Shown here: positions 2,169-13,628 of the stretch, one piece after another
How positions within the stretch are numbered: position 1 is the stretch's first letter
How the letters are laid out: each line of letters opens with the position of its first letter
DNA from: a virus
Strand: one strand, 5' to 3'
Virus record (IMG/VR): IMGVR_UViG_3300014838_000039
Span: 1-38,886 of that record
DNA length: 38,886 bases
The notes under the pieces: generated by a model
Seen by the model: the letters and a program-made list of their open reading frames with translations, nothing else
What the model was told of the DNA's origin: nothing
The model's database searches: none
Translations under genes and position numbers: made by a program

Positions 2169-3181
2169 GGAAGAAGATATTCAGGAACATTGTTATTGAA
2201 GAATGTTCCAGCTTCCCAGATCAATACATCAGCATTAGCACCACCAGGGAATCCTGCTCCACCAGTAAGGATCATACCAATAGCACCTTCGTTAAGTGTA
2301 GCATCAGATAAGATGTTAACACCTTGTAGAAGAGCATCAGCAGTATCTTCACCAACTGGAATAGCAAGAGCTGGAGTAAATGCAGAAAGCAGACCTGTTG
2401 TTGGCCATGCAAATGTAGTAAAGCTTGTTGAGTCAACGTTAACTGTTATTGAGTTAGCGCCTGCACCTGTTGTCGCATCATTAACTGCAACAATAGTAGC
2501 TAATATGTTATTCATCTCAACCATACCGAAAGCAGCAGGAACCGTAATACGGATTGCTTGACCTTCTTGATATGTGTGTAATACAGAGAAAGTAATAACT
2601 GCTTGAGTAGCTTTAGTAATGCTTGTGATAACGCGTTTTGACGGATAGAAGTAAGGGTTATAAGGAATAACTCTCCAGCTACCAGTCGTAGCAGCAACAA
2701 TTTGAGCCATGTAATCAAGACTAAAAGTAGTAGCGCTTAACGTGTTATAACCAACAGTGAAATCGATTCCACCAAGTTGTTGACCGCCAACAATATTGAT
2801 CAAACGAACAACACTACCTGGAATTAAACCGTTTGTTCCTGTGTTAGTAACAACAGGAATAGCAGCACTAGAAATAGCTGTAATTGTTGAAACTAATGTA
2901 CCAGGATTATTAATAGTATTGTTAAAATACTGAAAACCACCAGCAGTTGTATATGCAATTAAGTTAGCAGCGCCAGCAGCGTTTGATTTCAAATAGGTAT
3001 ACTCAGAATTCTGAGCCATACCAAATTGCCAGAAGAACTCAACACCAGTAGCAGTCGTTTGAGCTGCTGCAGCTTGAGTTAAGTTTCTAACTCTGATCCA
3101 GTCAACGCCAGAGACTAAAGATAGATAGACATTTGCACCATTCGATACAAACATACCACCTTGGTTAGTTGTTAATGTCAT
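2165..3181 (-). CDS. Capsid-associated structural protein with two FCCH-like modules
   Basis: A 338-residue protein rich in Thr, Ala, Gly and Ile, as expected of a beta-structured virion protein. Residues about 92-165 (STITAISSAAIPVV, GSVVRLINIVGGQQLGGIDF, ATTFSLDYMAQ) and about 180-255 (ITSITKATQAVITFSVLHTY, AIRITVPAAFGMVEMNN, ANSITVNVDSTSFTTF) are two copies of the FCCH-like module also seen at 1091-1462. It starts 10 bases after the capsid stop with a good AAGGAGAG ribosome-binding site, so it is probably co-expressed with the capsid. Likely a head decoration or head-tail interface protein; the exact role is not known. Confidence 0.6.
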   Translation of the reverse strand: MTLTTNQGGMFVSNGANVYLSLVSGVDWIRVRNLTQAAAAQTTATGVEFFWQFGMAQNSEYTYLKSNAAGAANLIAYTTAGGFQYFNNTINNPGTLVSTITAISSAAIPVVTNTGTNGLIPGSVVRLINIVGGQQLGGIDFTVGYNTLSATTFSLDYMAQIVAATTGSWRVIPYNPYFYPSKRVITSITKATQAVITFSVLHTYQEGQAIRITVPAAFGMVEMNNILATIVAVNDATTGAGANSITVNVDSTSFTTFAWPTTGLLSAFTPALAIPVGEDTADALLQGVNILSDATLNEGAIGMILTGGAGFPGGANADVLIWEAGTFFNNNVPEYLLP

Positions 3182-3190
3182 GTTCTCTCC

Positions 3191-3827
3191 TTAACTGTTT
3201 AATGTGCAACGAAGATTCAAGATCCAAAGGTCATTCAGGATTCTTGGGACTTCTGCAAACTTGTAACCAACAGAAGCGTTCAATGCTAATGGTCCATCGT
3301 ACACAGGTGGACGATAGATGAATGATGCGCTATAACCATCTTGTTCGATACAAGCATATGCTTCCATACCAGCACAGAAGATGTTATAAACGTCTTTGCC
3401 TAAGCTTGAAGCATCTGATGTAATAGAACCAATTGAAGAAATTAAGAATCTTAAGTTACCAATAGCACCCCACTCTGAACGAAGAGCGTTCATTGGAGCT
3501 GGATATTGGTTTTTTTGGATGAAACCATCAACTGAGTCCATATCTTTAGTAAGATCTGTATGACACATAGCGAAGTACGCATCACGAACAGGCGCTGTAC
3601 CAAATTTATCTTCCCCTTCAATGTTATCTAAGATTGTGTACGCATTGTTTCCAAGAAGCGCACGAACAACGTTATCAACATCTGAACGAGATAAGTTAGT
3701 TGGGTTGTCACCATTAACACCACCAGTACAGTTAATGAAAGCAGCTGTAGCAGCTAACATATCACGCGTTAACTGATCTTCTGTTTGACGTAATGAAACA
3801 CCAAGACGAGCAGCACATTCATTCAAA
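3191..3827 (-). CDS. Major capsid protein (N4-gp56 type), 3' exon
   Basis: This is the downstream exon of the capsid gene. After predicted splicing the frame reads DPV|LNECAARLGVSLRQTEDQL and continues to the stop, about 211 residues. It includes a conserved-looking TRDMLAATAAFIN helix, SDVDNVVRALLGNNAYTI, and the C-terminal YSASFIYRPPVYDGPLALNA. This layout matches N4-gp56-family major capsid proteins. An apparent ATG-less start further upstream (3850) lies inside the intron and is not the real N-terminus. Joined to the 5' exon, with the 35-nt insertion left out, the product is 316 residues, a plausible length for the family. Confidence 0.88.
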
Positions 3828-4065
3828 CATTCTGTTACTTTAATGACCAAACTTTTACATTTGGCGGAGAAACCTCTTCGGATCTCTCTCTCATACTTTC
3901 GATATGAGTTCAGACTTTCGCATGCTCTTCGTAAGGTTGAAGAGCCCCACCCGCTAAGTCGTTCAGCCTGGAATTCAAATTCTTAATCCTTGGCCCTTGT
4001 CACCATAGCTTTCGCCTTAGGCTTCCAAGTCAATCAGGGTAGGTTTTAATCCCGCTTTCACCTTA
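3828..4065 (-). ncRNA. Group I self-splicing intron in the capsid gene
   Basis: A 238-nt intervening sequence with the hallmarks of a compact group I ribozyme. P1: the 5'-exon end ATCCCGT pairs with GCGGGAT inside the intron, placing the required U.G pair at the splice site. P10: AAA just 5' of that guide pairs with TTT at the start of the 3' exon. P3: CCTACCC with GGGTGGG. P4: CTTGG with CCAAG. P7: GACTT with AAGTC. P8: GCTCTTC with GAAGAGC. P9: CTCATA with TATGAG, followed by a CCAAA/TTTGG hairpin. The intron ends in G (3828). Exact removal restores GAT-CCC-GTT-TTG-AAT (DPVLN) in frame. It contains no endonuclease gene. Confidence 0.9.
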
Positions 4066-8268: not shown

Positions 8269-10407
8269 CTATCCTTGCGCACCTAAACCAGCCATAGCAC
8301 TCATCGCACTTGATTGTTCAGGCGCAGCCTCTTGCTGCTGTCCTTGGTTTTGTACTAGATTCTGTCCTTCAGCGCCCACGGGCGTTTGTGAAACATTTTT
8401 CAGACCAGCTTCAGCAACCTTAGATTCAGTTTCTTTCAACGCATTAGAAATAGCAAGCAGCTTTTCAATGTGATGAATATCCATCTCTTCAAGTTCCTTC
8501 ATAGCCTTCACTTTATTCAAGAATGCTAATTCATCTTGAGCATTAGCTTCATGAACTTGTCTAATAGCCAAGGCTCTATTCTCTTGAACGCGAGATATAC
8601 GCTCAACAGCAAGACCTCTATCTGCTTCTGCTCTAGAATGAGCAAGGTCAACTTTAGCTTGTTGTTCTTGTAGAGCACTTTGCATCTGCATTTGCTGTGC
8701 TTGCATAGCTTGCTCTTGCTTCTTCTTAGCATTCTCAATGATGACTTTTTTGTTCTGTATCGTTGCTGCTTCAAGCAAGTCTTCAGTCGTAATAGGAACA
8801 CCAGCTTCATGCAACTGTAACATCTGAGCAAATTGCATTTGACGCTGAGTAGCAGTGTTTAATCCATCTTCCACAACCGCATCATAACGACCGAAAGCCT
8901 TATTATAAAATTGCTGTGATGGTTCTTCACCACTTAAAATACGTTTAATCTTACCAGGCATGAAGTTAGCCTGAATTAGATCTATAAACAACTTACCAAG
9001 CAATTGTTGAGATCTGTCAAGCTGATCAAATAAACCTTGAAGCGTAGTCAATCCAGCACTTTGTCTAAGCATCGAAAGTATACCAGCCTTATCATCTACT
9101 GCTGCACCAAGAAGCTCTTCATTAACGCCAGATATTTGCGTCAATTCTTTACCCATGATTTCAGAAAGCTGTATGACTGCATTAGGAATGTTTGGAGTTT
9201 GTATTTGCTGAACGTCAGACATTTGAGCTTCAGCCTTAAGAGCGAGACCACGACCTTGACCAGAAAGGAATACATCCTTCGGATTAATTAAGGCATCTTC
9301 TTTATAGATCCAACCAGAAGTAATTTGAGACTCTAAGATATCCAGTTCAATAATCTTACGACGGTTATAGAGATACTGAGCATCCCGTAGTCCACGTACC
9401 ACACCTTGCACACGCCAGTTGTAATAAGGGAGTTCAGGATTATAGTAAGCCCATACAGGAACAAAAGGATAATTATCAATACCCATTGGTTGTGGCCCAT
9501 GGTACATTACCTTTCCTTGCACAACTATAGCCATTCTAACCGTAGGAATCTCTTGCTGTATTACCGTAATCTGTGGATATTGTTCGAGAAACTGCTCTAA
9601 ACCTTCTTTATCATCTACTTTCCATTCTTGTACTTCACCTGTCTCTGTATCAACAAGCATTTTCTGTGTTCTATAATCGCGATAGTAAAACTCATCATAT
9701 GTAAGTAAGTTCTTATGACCGTAATTATAAGACTCAGCCATAAACTGAAACTTACCATCTCTTCCTGTACCACTATCATTACCTACTAACCCAAGTATTT
9801 CTTCAGTTCTATCAGGTAAGAGCGACAAGCATTCACGCTTAGTTAAGAATGATCGTTTCCATATAGAGTTACAATCAGATAAATCAGCCTTTTTAAAGAA
9901 CGGATCTATAAGAAATGAGTTATAACTACAGTTATCAACCCTAATGTCACCTGAAACTGGATCATTTCTATAGTCCATCCATACTTGAAGTAGATTCATT
10001 CCACCAACCAAAGCACCATTAAATGCTTCAGAGATAGTCTCTAAAATGTTTTCTTTGTTGTTAAGCCAGATCATGATCTTAGAGAATTGATCTGCTGTTT
10101 CTGCATCTCCGTTCTCTACAGGAACAACAATCGTAGACTTACGTACCTGTCTTTGGCGACCAGAGATCATATTGATGATAGGTCGGATGCGATTGAAACT
10201 AAATTGACGTCTGCGATTAGCAGGAAGATTACCATAAAGGTCTGACCAAAGAGTTTGATCTCCTACATAGAATCGGTGATCAGTATCAGCCTCTTGCCAG
10301 TATGTTTGATTAATAGTGATTGATTCGGCATACATGGCTTCCATGCGCATCAGGATGCCTTTATCCTTTTCGTCGTAGTATTGGGGTCCAAGCTGGGGAA
10401 ATAACAT
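8269..10407 (-). CDS. Portal protein (P22 gp1-like)
   Basis: A 712-residue protein that forms the dodecameric portal ring through which DNA enters and leaves the head. The N-terminal half contains WQEADTDHRFYVGDQTLWSD, NRIRPIINMISGRQRQVRKS, and SYNSFLIDPFFKKADLSDCN, all typical of P22-type portals. AQYLYNRRKIIELDILESQI and a stem-like helical segment follow. Residues about 545-660 are Gln/Glu-rich coiled coil (the barrel region), and the last 50 residues are low-complexity Gln/Ala/Gly. The length is close to P22 gp1 (725). It lies two small genes downstream of the large terminase. The ribosome-binding site is TAGGAGTTT. Confidence 0.92.
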   Translation of the reverse strand: MLFPQLGPQYYDEKDKGILMRMEAMYAESITINQTYWQEADTDHRFYVGDQTLWSDLYGNLPANRRRQFSFNRIRPIINMISGRQRQVRKSTIVVPVENGDAETADQFSKIMIWLNNKENILETISEAFNGALVGGMNLLQVWMDYRNDPVSGDIRVDNCSYNSFLIDPFFKKADLSDCNSIWKRSFLTKRECLSLLPDRTEEILGLVGNDSGTGRDGKFQFMAESYNYGHKNLLTYDEFYYRDYRTQKMLVDTETGEVQEWKVDDKEGLEQFLEQYPQITVIQQEIPTVRMAIVVQGKVMYHGPQPMGIDNYPFVPVWAYYNPELPYYNWRVQGVVRGLRDAQYLYNRRKIIELDILESQITSGWIYKEDALINPKDVFLSGQGRGLALKAEAQMSDVQQIQTPNIPNAVIQLSEIMGKELTQISGVNEELLGAAVDDKAGILSMLRQSAGLTTLQGLFDQLDRSQQLLGKLFIDLIQANFMPGKIKRILSGEEPSQQFYNKAFGRYDAVVEDGLNTATQRQMQFAQMLQLHEAGVPITTEDLLEAATIQNKKVIIENAKKKQEQAMQAQQMQMQSALQEQQAKVDLAHSRAEADRGLAVERISRVQENRALAIRQVHEANAQDELAFLNKVKAMKELEEMDIHHIEKLLAISNALKETESKVAEAGLKNVSQTPVGAEGQNLVQNQGQQQEAAPEQSSAMSAMAGLGAQG

Positions 10408-10745: not shown

Positions 10746-11199
10746 CGAGGAATCCTAGGTCATTTTTAATTGAATAACTATCAAAGTTAAGTGGAATACT
10801 ACGAACATCAGACACGCTATCATTAACTTCATACACACTCTCTTCTTCAAACTTCTCAAACTGGTGATCTAATGGATCTTCACCCATTGCAAAACAAAGT
10901 ATATCTTCCCACGTTCTACTAAAATCTAAATTCTCTCTCTTAGGCTTAAGCTGCTTGAAGAAGATTTTAATACAACGCTCAGTCAATGCGATAGCTAATT
11001 GTCTTCTTAATAGCTTCTGCTCTATAGATTCTTCCATATCTACAGGCTTATGAAGATCGTAAACTTTGTTTTTGTATCTCACCGTAAAGTCTTTAGCTTC
11101 ACAATCCATCACCTTATCTAGATCTTCAAGCAAATTAAGCAGCGAAGCAGTAATCTTTATAGTCTGATCTCTTAAATTATCATATTGCTTCTGTATCAT
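10711..11199 (-). CDS. Unknown helical protein between terminase and portal
   Basis: A 162-residue, acidic, largely helical protein. It starts MIQKQYDNLRDQTIKITASL and has a central LLRRQLAIALTERCIKIFFK segment and an acidic C-terminus (EKFEEESVYEVNDSVSDV). It is the first gene after the large terminase. No family is recognised, and its position suggests a role in head assembly or DNA packaging. The end overlaps the next gene by 35 nt. Confidence 0.5.
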   Translation of the reverse strand: MIQKQYDNLRDQTIKITASLLNLLEDLDKVMDCEAKDFTVRYKNKVYDLHKPVDMEESIEQKLLRRQLAIALTERCIKIFFKQLKPKRENLDFSRTWEDILCFAMGEDPLDHQFEKFEEESVYEVNDSVSDVRSIPLNFDSYSIKNDLGFLDVEQSKSLDTF

Positions 11200-11234
11200 T
11201 TGATTCCTTCCAGCATTCGCTGTTCTTTAATTAA

Positions 11235-13628
11235 CTAATAAATAGGTAGGTCATCACGGAATACTGATGGTAGATTATGATTATGATTACCATACGCAGC
11301 CTCATTATAACGCTTCTCGAGCTCTTCTGGACTTGAATGAGCAGCAAGCTTAGGCAAGCTATAACAGAGATATCTCATGGTGTCAGAATTTGACACCAAG
11401 TATCCATTTGCGTAATAGCAATTGTCATGCTCTATCGTTAAATCATAAACGTATTCTGGGTTTTCTAAGTAAAGTCGACTTACATTCTTTACCACATGTC
11501 TTTTTAGAATTGTATTTTCCACAAGAGAATATAGCCGAACAAATACAACAAGAACGATCCACAAAATCAAGTTTAGACTTGACTCTGTAGCGAGTTTTAC
11601 AAGCGTTAGAACAGAAACGCTGATTAAACTTATTGCCGATATAATCTTTTTCACAAATTTCACAATTTTTTGGATAAGTGATTCCTCTAAGCCATGGCAA
11701 TGAGTTTTTCGCATGCCCTCTATGCCATTCTCTTCCTTCGTCGCTTCTATGCCAAACACTTGCTTGCGGTCTGATTCTCTGAAGCAATTCTTTGCACGAA
11801 TTGGAGTGTGGCCAACTATTTGGATTATTGGAGTGAAGCGCCATATGATCACTTCGACTAATAAGTTGCAAATTTTCGATAGAATTGTTTTTACGATTGT
11901 GATCGATGTGATGTATTTGATAGCCTTTTGGAATGAGACCATTATAAAATTCCCAAACATCCCTGTGAAGCCGGTATGCTCTTCCCCAGGAAGTTTTTCG
12001 TGCGTAGTATCTTTCTTCCTCCCAAATATAAATAACTCCATTAAAGACAACTTGGGATTCATCGTCAGAGATAAAAAAGTCTTTTTGAAGCCTTTCGAAT
12101 CTAACTCCATTGTATATATGACTTTCCATAAAAATTCCTTCACTTTATTATAATGCTCCATAACATCAGTATATCTCAAAGCATCGGATTCTACGAGTCC
12201 TCTTTGAGTGAATATTTTATGCTGAGGGGTACAAATAAGTTCTGAATTTCCTACGGATACTTTAACAAGTTCACTTACTAGCCTTTTATGAACTTTAAGC
12301 ACCTTTCTTAATCCAAAAGGAGTCTTTACTAAATCATTAATGTTAATTTCGCTTATATTAACACTTCCTTTAGATGTCAGGATTTTAGTATTAGAAGTAA
12401 AGCACCAATGAGATGACCAATCATGCAGTGGATTAAGTTTATACACCTTCTTCTTATGATCATACTCTTGTCGATAGTTCTCAATGGCTTTAATAAGAGA
12501 GGCGCAAGCCTTCTCATCAAACCACATCTTAGGTAGCGTTCGACGCACTGATTCTATTCCATCATCAACACTAGGATGCTTGTCACTATAACGCATGAAG
12601 GTTATGCCGAGATCATGCATCATCTTCCAACGACTTATACCAGTACCAAGATCATGGACAGCAATATCAAATGGAGCAATATGCTTACCATAAGAATATT
12701 CTTTTTCTTTAACGACTTTTGCATAATGCTCTAATCCCTTCTTATTATTCTCATAGCAATCTATAACTGCTATAACTTGACCAATAACCTGAAAAAATAT
12801 GATAGTAGTCGGATCATTATAACCAAGATCCCACGCTGTATGAACCGGGAAGTATGGTTCCCATAAAACATTAGTGATCTGACCCTTACGACGAAGATCA
12901 TCTATGTATTTAGCATAGAAGGATCCTTCAACACCAAGTTCAAATGAACACCAGTATTCTTGCTCAGCTAGATCTCTAGACATCTGACCTTCAGCAATAT
13001 CTTTCTCTATCTCATCAATATCAATATGACAAGTATCATCAATGCTAAGTCTTTCACAAAACCAATCAGGGCTTTCTTTAGCAACTTGATAAAGTTCCCA
13101 CAAGGCGTTCTTTCCACGAGGCGTAGTAACGAATAGCGCCCAGCCATTAGATGCCTTAAGAATAGGTATAGCATATGAATAAGATCTAGAATCTGAGAGT
13201 GCATACTCACTAAAAATGATGCCTAAAGCATTTGTACCCACCAAAGCAGTATCTGCATTATCAGACCCTAAAATCTGTATCTGAGAGCCATTGGTTAAAC
13301 GAACTCTCATCTGTTGTTCATTTCTCGATTCTACAATCTCATCAGGAATATAATAATTGAGTACACGATTACCAGAAATATCTATAGCATCCCACAAGAT
13401 CCTGCGACCAGAGCTAAAAGTGGGAAAGCAGTAGTAATAAGTACCTACTCTTCTAAGAGCTGCGCGAACCATTAAATTCAACGCACAAATATCCTTTCCG
13501 GAACGCCTTGGCCAGATTACGAGGAACTTCTTAATCTTAGCTTCTTCAAAAGCTTTACAAAGATTGTACTGATATGACCTAGCTTTAAAGCGATCAAGCT
13601 TTATCTGCGTCTCTATGGTTAGATTCAT
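11235..13628 (-). CDS. terL: Terminase large subunit, interrupted by an intein
   Basis: A 797-codon frame encoding the DNA-packaging motor, with ATPase and nuclease domains. Walker A is WPRRSGKD (39-46). The Walker-B-like strand is ALGIIFSEYA (134-143), with Glu141 as the likely catalytic residue. Nuclease acidic residues are D267 in TAWDLGY, D326 in AVHDLGTG, and D749 in the split motif HDWSSHW|SDTMRYL. The intein lies at residues 409-747, exactly inside that last motif. The mature protein after splicing would be 458 residues, normal for P22/Sf6-type terminases. Splicing is therefore required to build the nuclease site. The middle of the intein in this frame (about 500-725) looks non-coding because an HNH gene occupies another frame there. 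Confidence 0.92.
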   Translation of the reverse strand: MNLTIETQIKLDRFKARSYQYNLCKAFEEAKIKKFLVIWPRRSGKDICALNLMVRAALRRVGTYYYCFPTFSSGRRILWDAIDISGNRVLNYYIPDEIVESRNEQQMRVRLTNGSQIQILGSDNADTALVGTNALGIIFSEYALSDSRSYSYAIPILKASNGWALFVTTPRGKNALWELYQVAKESPDWFCERLSIDDTCHIDIDEIEKDIAEGQMSRDLAEQEYWCSFELGVEGSFYAKYIDDLRRKGQITNVLWEPYFPVHTAWDLGYNDPTTIIFFQVIGQVIAVIDCYENNKKGLEHYAKVVKEKEYSYGKHIAPFDIAVHDLGTGISRWKMMHDLGITFMRYSDKHPSVDDGIESVRRTLPKMWFDEKACASLIKAIENYRQEYDHKKKVYKLNPLHDWSSHWCFTSNTKILTSKGSVNISEININDLVKTPFGLRKVLKVHKRLVSELVKVSVGNSELICTPQHKIFTQRGLVESDALRYTDVMEHYNKVKEFLWKVIYTMELDSKGFKKTFLSLTMNPKLSLMELFIFGRKKDTTHEKLPGEEHTGFTGMFGNFIMVSFQKAIKYITSITIVKTILSKICNLLVEVIIWRFTPIIQIVGHTPIRAKNCFRESDRKQVFGIEATKEENGIEGMRKTHCHGLEESLIQKIVKFVKKIISAISLISVSVLTLVKLATESSLNLILWIVLVVFVRLYSLVENTILKRHVVKNVSRLYLENPEYVYDLTIEHDNCYYANGYLVSNSDTMRYLCYSLPKLAAHSSPEELEKRYNEAAYGNHNHNLPSVFRDDLPIY
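11388..12404 (-). mobile_element. Intein in the terminase nuclease motif
   Basis: A 339-residue intein (terminase residues 409-747). Block A begins at the splice Cys: CFTSNTKILTSKGSVNISEI. Block B is GNSELICTPQHKIFT with the TxxH motif. Blocks F and G are VYDLTIEHDNCYYANGYLVS followed by the terminal Asn. The +1 extein residue is Ser. The penultimate residue is Ser rather than the usual His, which some inteins tolerate. Splicing joins SSHW to SDTMRY and rebuilds the terminase active site. The region between block B and block F in the intein frame is unlike any intein domain and overlaps the HNH gene at 11443-12129. Confidence 0.9.
11443..12129 (-). CDS. HNH endonuclease nested in the intein, in another frame
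   Basis: A 228-residue protein read two bases out of phase with the terminase-intein frame. Residues 30-105 are an HNH_3 nuclease: GVIYIWEEERYYARKTSWGR, LHRDVWEFYNGLIPKGYQIH, then HIDHNRKNNSIENLQLISRS. Residues 150-220 hold two zinc-ribbon motifs (NCEICEKDY...FCSNACK, CCICSAIF...TCGKECKS). It has its own AAGGAA ribosome-binding site five bases before its ATG. An in-frame TAA six codons upstream means it cannot be a fusion to intein block B. Its stop falls within the codons of intein block F. It probably provides mobility to the intein while being translated separately. Confidence 0.88.
   Translation of the reverse strand: MESHIYNGVRFERLQKDFFISDDESQVVFNGVIYIWEEERYYARKTSWGRAYRLHRDVWEFYNGLIPKGYQIHHIDHNRKNNSIENLQLISRSDHMALHSNNPNSWPHSNSCKELLQRIRPQASVWHRSDEGREWHRGHAKNSLPWLRGITYPKNCEICEKDYIGNKFNQRFCSNACKTRYRVKSKLDFVDRSCCICSAIFSCGKYNSKKTCGKECKSTLLRKPRIRL

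Follow-up and report, generated by a model that had tools for sequence, protein, structure and literature searches.

The large terminase gene (terL) of the virus recorded in IMG/VR as IMGVR_UViG_3300014838_000039, whose whole 38,886-nucleotide stretch is referred to here as the window, is interrupted by an intein, and the DNA of this intein also encodes an HNH endonuclease in a second frame of the same strand. The two interleaved genes, an intein and an out-of-frame, free HNH homing endonuclease, most probably make up a single mobile element. The out-of-frame HNH gene nested in the TerL intein, first noticed in an initial annotation of the window, was confirmed, and every coordinate and frame given there for terL, intein and HNH gene was re-derived. 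The exteins ...LHDWSSHW and SDTMRYL... flank the intein, which is inserted in frame at a conserved site of its host gene. The HNH open reading frame (ORF) extends from an ATG at 12129 to a TGA at 11443-11445, such that the intein frame is the HNH frame +1 and the HNH frame the intein frame -1. Across the overlap, the intein frame was found to be open throughout, as claimed, with 0 stops, against 25 in the third frame. The AAGGAA site, ATG, upstream in-frame TAA and block F stop attributed to the HNH gene were all located at 12147-11443.

Searched alone, the intein matched the Pfam family Intein_splicing at 36.8 bits (cut-off, 35.8). It displays a Hint domain, Cys1, a TxxH motif in block B and a terminal Asn, is followed by a residue of the Cys/Ser/Thr set at +1, and its block residues were invariant in the A2/A3 alignments. 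The HNH ORF matched Pfam HNH_3 at 64.2 bits (E=8e-18) and harbors the HNH motif together with zinc-binding cysteines. Inteins are normally taught as one protein made of a splicing and an endonuclease part. The window intein shares with canonical inteins the Hint fold, the splice-junction residues, a conserved site in an essential gene and the existence of empty alleles; in canonical inteins, however, the precursor protein includes the endonuclease as an in-frame domain located between blocks B and F, whereas in the window the endonuclease is a separate, overlapping gene. Nor is the window intein split, with halves on separate ORFs, since it consists of one continuous ORF.

Relatives were collected using two kinds of query, the HNH protein itself and an alignment of nested HNH proteins, yielding 122 loci (123 with the window, hereafter designated by L numbers) that were classified with home-made models of the N- and C-terminal Hint blocks and of HNH. 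A profile search of genome contigs yielded 3 loci. Because the loci were found through HNH, and only the best 80 of 545 or more relatives were kept, the frequencies of the classes are not population estimates. In 73 of the 123 loci, window included, both Hint blocks resided in one continuous ORF around HNH, and 7 further loci displayed one Hint block only. The intein frame was HNH +1 in all 80 of these loci; the +2 phase was absent from them, and no in-frame HNH relative was present among the 123. Two of the 73 continuous loci (L031 and L032) carried a decayed HNH gene. Four further TerL relatives each contained another nested HNH gene, again with the intein frame at +1. The layout of the window recurs in at least 65 other distinct phage-contig homologues, among them those of the isolates TJE1 and Highwayman. 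The nine host ORFs tested matched terminase families of several lineages, and the insertion points clustered in the nuclease motif at no fewer than three distinct positions.

The open intein frame had initially been assigned a chance probability of roughly 2 in 100,000, or lower in AT-rich sequence. The corresponding figures are 1.7e-5 from (61/64)^229 and 2.4e-8 with local base composition, but the null itself was naive and wrong: upon synonymous shuffling of the last 206 HNH codons, which preserves both the protein and the codon usage of HNH, the +1 frame of the window remained open in 2.4% of the shuffles. A single locus is thus weak statistical evidence and selection is not provable from the window alone, making recurrence across relatives decisive. 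The joint shuffle probability over 66 loci was ~1e-106, with a floor of 0.001 for each locus and kinship not corrected for. None of the 66 distinct intact nested HNH genes contained a +1 stop, a zero that is not independent evidence since the nested class is defined by its open frame. The weight rests instead on the other classes and on the tree. Homologues that are free-standing (26) or located between intein halves (11) held on average 7.2 and 8.6 stops in the +1 frame, respectively, equal to the shuffle prediction. Dipeptides of the type M-[IMTNK], which are able to force a +1 stop, were absent from nested HNH proteins, compared to 0.54 per gene in the free-standing and 1.09 in the between-halves class. 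The +2 frame held ~20 stops in every class; thus, only the +1 frame could be kept open. Mapped onto a tree of 103 HNH proteins, nesting as a label required 8 changes, 7 being the least forced by well-supported branches, and it was paired with an open +1 frame in seven out of seven independent contrasts. As the root of this tree is arbitrary, it does not fix whether HNH genes passed from free to nested or the reverse.

Based on these observations, we propose that the N- and C-terminal flanks of the first frame, in frame with TerL, would fold into a Hint domain that excises itself and rejoins TerL. The ~200 residues separating the flanks would be disordered and arise as a by-product of the second gene, with their frame kept open and their sequence largely free. 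The second frame (intein frame -1) would encode an HNH homing endonuclease made as a free protein, its translation beginning at an internal ribosome site of its own and ending at the stop that intein block F supplies. This nuclease may then cleave terL alleles that lack the intein, at the RuvC-like nuclease motif, and their repair would copy the intein and HNH gene jointly into the cut terL. The earlier suggestion of a dual-coded, independently translated homing gene that has to keep the other frame open for splicing is supported and fits all of the comparative evidence, with independent translation, splicing and homing still inferred.

The signals at the two ends of the nested genes are in line with separate translation. 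HNH starts fell 218-287 nucleotides past the start of the intein, and Shine-Dalgarno (SD)-like matches of at least 5 nucleotides were found at 27% of them compared to 1.8% of control starts. The HNH stop was inside block F in 47 of 57 loci, mostly in codons for [Y/F]-[D/N] or for the V-E of the V-Y-D-L-x-V-E motif; thus, the splicing motif itself supplies the HNH stop. Several points nonetheless weigh against a free nuclease acting from within a splicing intein. For nested genes, the SD figure is based on the best among several candidate starts, but on single starts for the controls, and a clear SD-like match is missing from roughly half of the nested genes. Canonical -1 slippery heptamers occurred at 19 sites in 16 of 60 loci, compared to 5.8 expected from TerL, so that some loci, the window included, may produce a frameshifted fusion. 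In one clade (L001/L045/L068/L109), the overlap is slightly more conserved in the intein frame and may have some function. Finally, splicing, a separate, internally translated HNH protein and the cleavage of empty sites are all deduced from sequence.

Synthesis of HNH by ribosomes that shift from the intein frame into the -1 frame, such that a fusion of TerL-N, intein-N and HNH would be made in place of a free protein, is unlikely, although it accounts for the HNH frame being exactly -1 of the intein frame and for heptamers being about three times as common near nested HNH starts as in TerL. The window itself contains such a heptamer, TTTTTTA (T TTT TTA in the intein frame), at ~12070-12080 on the minus strand, inside the HNH N-terminus. 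Several heptamers, however, coincide with conserved GK codons of HNH, and 44 of the 60 loci have none. In the window, moreover, an HNH-frame TAA lies six codons ahead of an ATG that has an SD-like site, and the enrichment of SD-like matches at nested starts likewise favors initiation over frameshifting.

As expected of a homing endonuclease, both occupied and empty alleles were found among close relatives. TerL relatives 75% identical to that of the window have an empty site, LHDWSSHW/ADAMRYL or close variants thereof (e.g. L123, L127-L129, L142), and another nested intein occupies the same TerL site in L124-L126 and L130. The empty sites of L131 and L137 have Cys at +1 (LHDWSSHFCDAMRYL) in place of Ala, perhaps the trace of a lost intein. 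The intein most similar to that of the window (46% identity) was found in L031/L032. It is 124 codons shorter, with the HNH core deleted, the HNH frame broken and the intein frame open; the intein therefore does not need HNH, and this state is the one expected at the end of a homing cycle. The TerL of L031 (L031:409-3487) contains two inteins: that at the nuclease motif holds the decayed nested HNH, and that near the P-loop has an in-frame middle part that is LAGLIDADG-like by eye. Such decay, together with the 2.4% of shuffles that stay open at a single locus given codon usage, could suggest that the window element is dead, with HNH a relic and the open intein frame coincidental. This is very improbable given that the window HNH is intact with a confidently folded model, that the codon-position pattern in its relatives indicates constraint on the HNH protein, and that the joint shuffle probability is minute.

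Highwayman and BP10 carry HNH proteins 51% identical to each other, of which one is nested and one free-standing, and TerL proteins only 27% identical, a contrast consistent with transfer between unrelated terminases. In eleven loci, including Lactobacillus phage CL2, the intein halves were separate ORFs with an HNH gene of the same family between them, and the arrangement in Vibrio phage 1.245.O looks like this split form. The terL and gp3 of Brochothrix phage BL3 (L154:727-2607) carry the N and C halves of an intein and a shortened, decayed HNH remnant. Separately, TerL was seen to be split by apparent trans-splicing inteins with HNH between the halves in L044, L048, L054, L059, L063 and L064, L044 being phage CL2, whose split-intein nature is unannotated; further apparent split-TerL loci with HNH between the halves are L069, L072, L079, L094, L111 and L153.

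In close pairs of relatives, third codon positions of HNH varied the most, and the similarity of the overlap in the intein frame was 0.44 at an HNH identity of 0.63, compared to 0.49 at an HNH identity of 0.70 for the unread frame of free-standing controls. Because third positions vary most and the intein-frame overlap resembles unread frames, protein-level constraint is mainly on HNH; the overlap is chiefly kept free of stops in the intein frame, with one clade as a possible exception. AlphaFold models, whose input alignments were built without rows from annotated phage records, agreed with this pattern. The HNH protein was modeled at a mean predicted local distance difference test (pLDDT) of 86.7. 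Means for the intein were 74-98 per ten-residue block over residues 1-90 and 87-97 over residues 301-339, and its flanks matched intein structures in a Hint fold, the gp41-1 intein being nearest. Residues 96-299, encoded by the overlap, mostly scored 30-60, and the segment is thus predicted to be disordered. That it forms a second functional domain, assisting the endonuclease or binding DNA, deserves little credence: identity in the intein frame is slightly higher in the clade mentioned above but elsewhere like that of unread frames, the pLDDT is low, and L031/L032 lost most of the segment and kept the intein. The nearest solved structure to the HNH model was I-HmuI (1u3e), a weak and partial match (Foldseek probability 0.99, E 0.02). 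Searching the sequences of solved structures with HNH returned weak matches only. I-HmuI is encoded in a group I intron; in the window, no Rfam match at gathering score was present in 11000-13000 and the host frame was open throughout, and a group I intron with a homing endonuclease gene was accordingly rejected.

In-frame HNH relatives and indels, either of which the initial annotation regarded as fatal to its reading, were looked for and neither was found. The layout is neither chance nor a sequencing indel: although intein endonucleases are usually in frame, it is hardly conceivable that errors of sequencing or assembly broke up an ordinary in-frame HNH domain through indels, and did so in the same phase in 66 distinct loci, isolates TJE1 and Highwayman included, with starts and stops at consistent intein positions and no in-frame member found. 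The features of the locus are compiled in Table 1.

Table 1. Features of the terL locus in the window.
Feature	Position	Strand	Remarks
terL, large terminase ORF interrupted by the intein	11235..13628	-	797 codons; PHROG terminase large subunit
TerL N-extein, terminal LHDWSSHW within nuclease motif	12405..13628	-	empty-site relatives: LHDWSSHW/ADAMRYL
Intein, 339 residues, Cys1...Asn339	11388..12404	-	Pfam Intein_splicing, invariant block residues, Hint fold
N-terminal Hint part, blocks A and B, Cys1	12119..12404	-	TPQHKIFT at 12230-12207
Intein-frame reading of the overlap, residues 96-299	11508..12119	-	predicted disordered filler, kept open
C-terminal Hint part	11388..11507	-	block F VYDLTIEHDNCYYANGYL, block G LVSN
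TerL C-extein SDTMRYL..., +1 residue Ser	11235..11387	-	Ala or Cys in empty relatives
Nested HNH endonuclease gene, 228 codons	11443..12129	-	HNH_3 match, PHROG 15471, AlphaFold model
AAGGAA, Shine-Dalgarno-like	12135..12140	-	5 bases upstream of HNH ATG
TAA in HNH frame, six codons upstream of HNH ATG	12145..12147	-	
HNH catalytic stretch (HHIDH...N...H95), HNH frame	11845..11913	-	H73, H74, H95 invariant in 18 sequences
HNH stop TGA	11443..11445	-	formed in block F codons TAT GAT (Tyr-Asp)

On the opposite strand, a 146-codon ORF (11713-12153, +) extends across HNH and is probably a by-product of composition. A portal protein (PHROG 156) is encoded at 8269-10407 on the minus strand. Most of the other large window ORFs tested had no PHROG match.

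The initial annotation knew of no described example of such a gene; precedents do exist. For brucellaphages, a single remark mentions a putative HNH gene, called intein-encoded, that is located inside terL but in another frame, the gene lying at 3170-3856 with a single-nucleotide polymorphism (SNP) site at 3357 (PMC4422536). As this SNP falls on the second codon position of HNH and is silent in TerL, the TerL phase there would be HNH +2. The brucellaphage case, compared from the paper only, thus likewise has an HNH gene inside terL, out of frame and intein-encoded according to its authors, but no Hint motifs are shown and the deduced phase is opposite to that of the window. No Brucella records were among the HNH matches listed. 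The ShiLan element is an out-of-frame HNH gene in a phage methylase, without intein splicing domains (PMC11855218); in common with the window, its host frame is open and, as checked here, corresponds to HNH +1. It differs from the window in its HNH subfamily and its GTG start, for which no ribosome site is reported, and had no match to our home-made Hint models, whereas a splicing domain is present in the window. The split relatives resemble split-intein 'fractured genes' (Dassa 2009, as cited by others), in which a free endonuclease gene is reported to be located between intein halves; in the window, by comparison, the intein is continuous and its DNA is read in both frames. No description of the class seen here was found in a literature search, subscription literature being outside its scope.

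The dual-coded layout is a widespread, conserved phage design, recorded so far only in passing in brucellaphages. We see even chances that inteins read in two frames form an old and widespread class in the terminases of phages. A single HNH family would then move among three states (free-standing, between split-intein halves and overprinted), overprinting would be confined to the one stop-poor phase, and breakage could yield natural split inteins. Here, the endonuclease is a gene of its own that overlaps the intein over a long stretch of the same strand. Recurring in many phage lineages, this arrangement provides a natural data set on the cost and evolution of dual coding, and an intermediate, open to testing, between continuous and split inteins. 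Such nucleases are hidden by annotation pipelines, the annotations of TJE1, Highwayman and LS06 showing terL alone at the locus.
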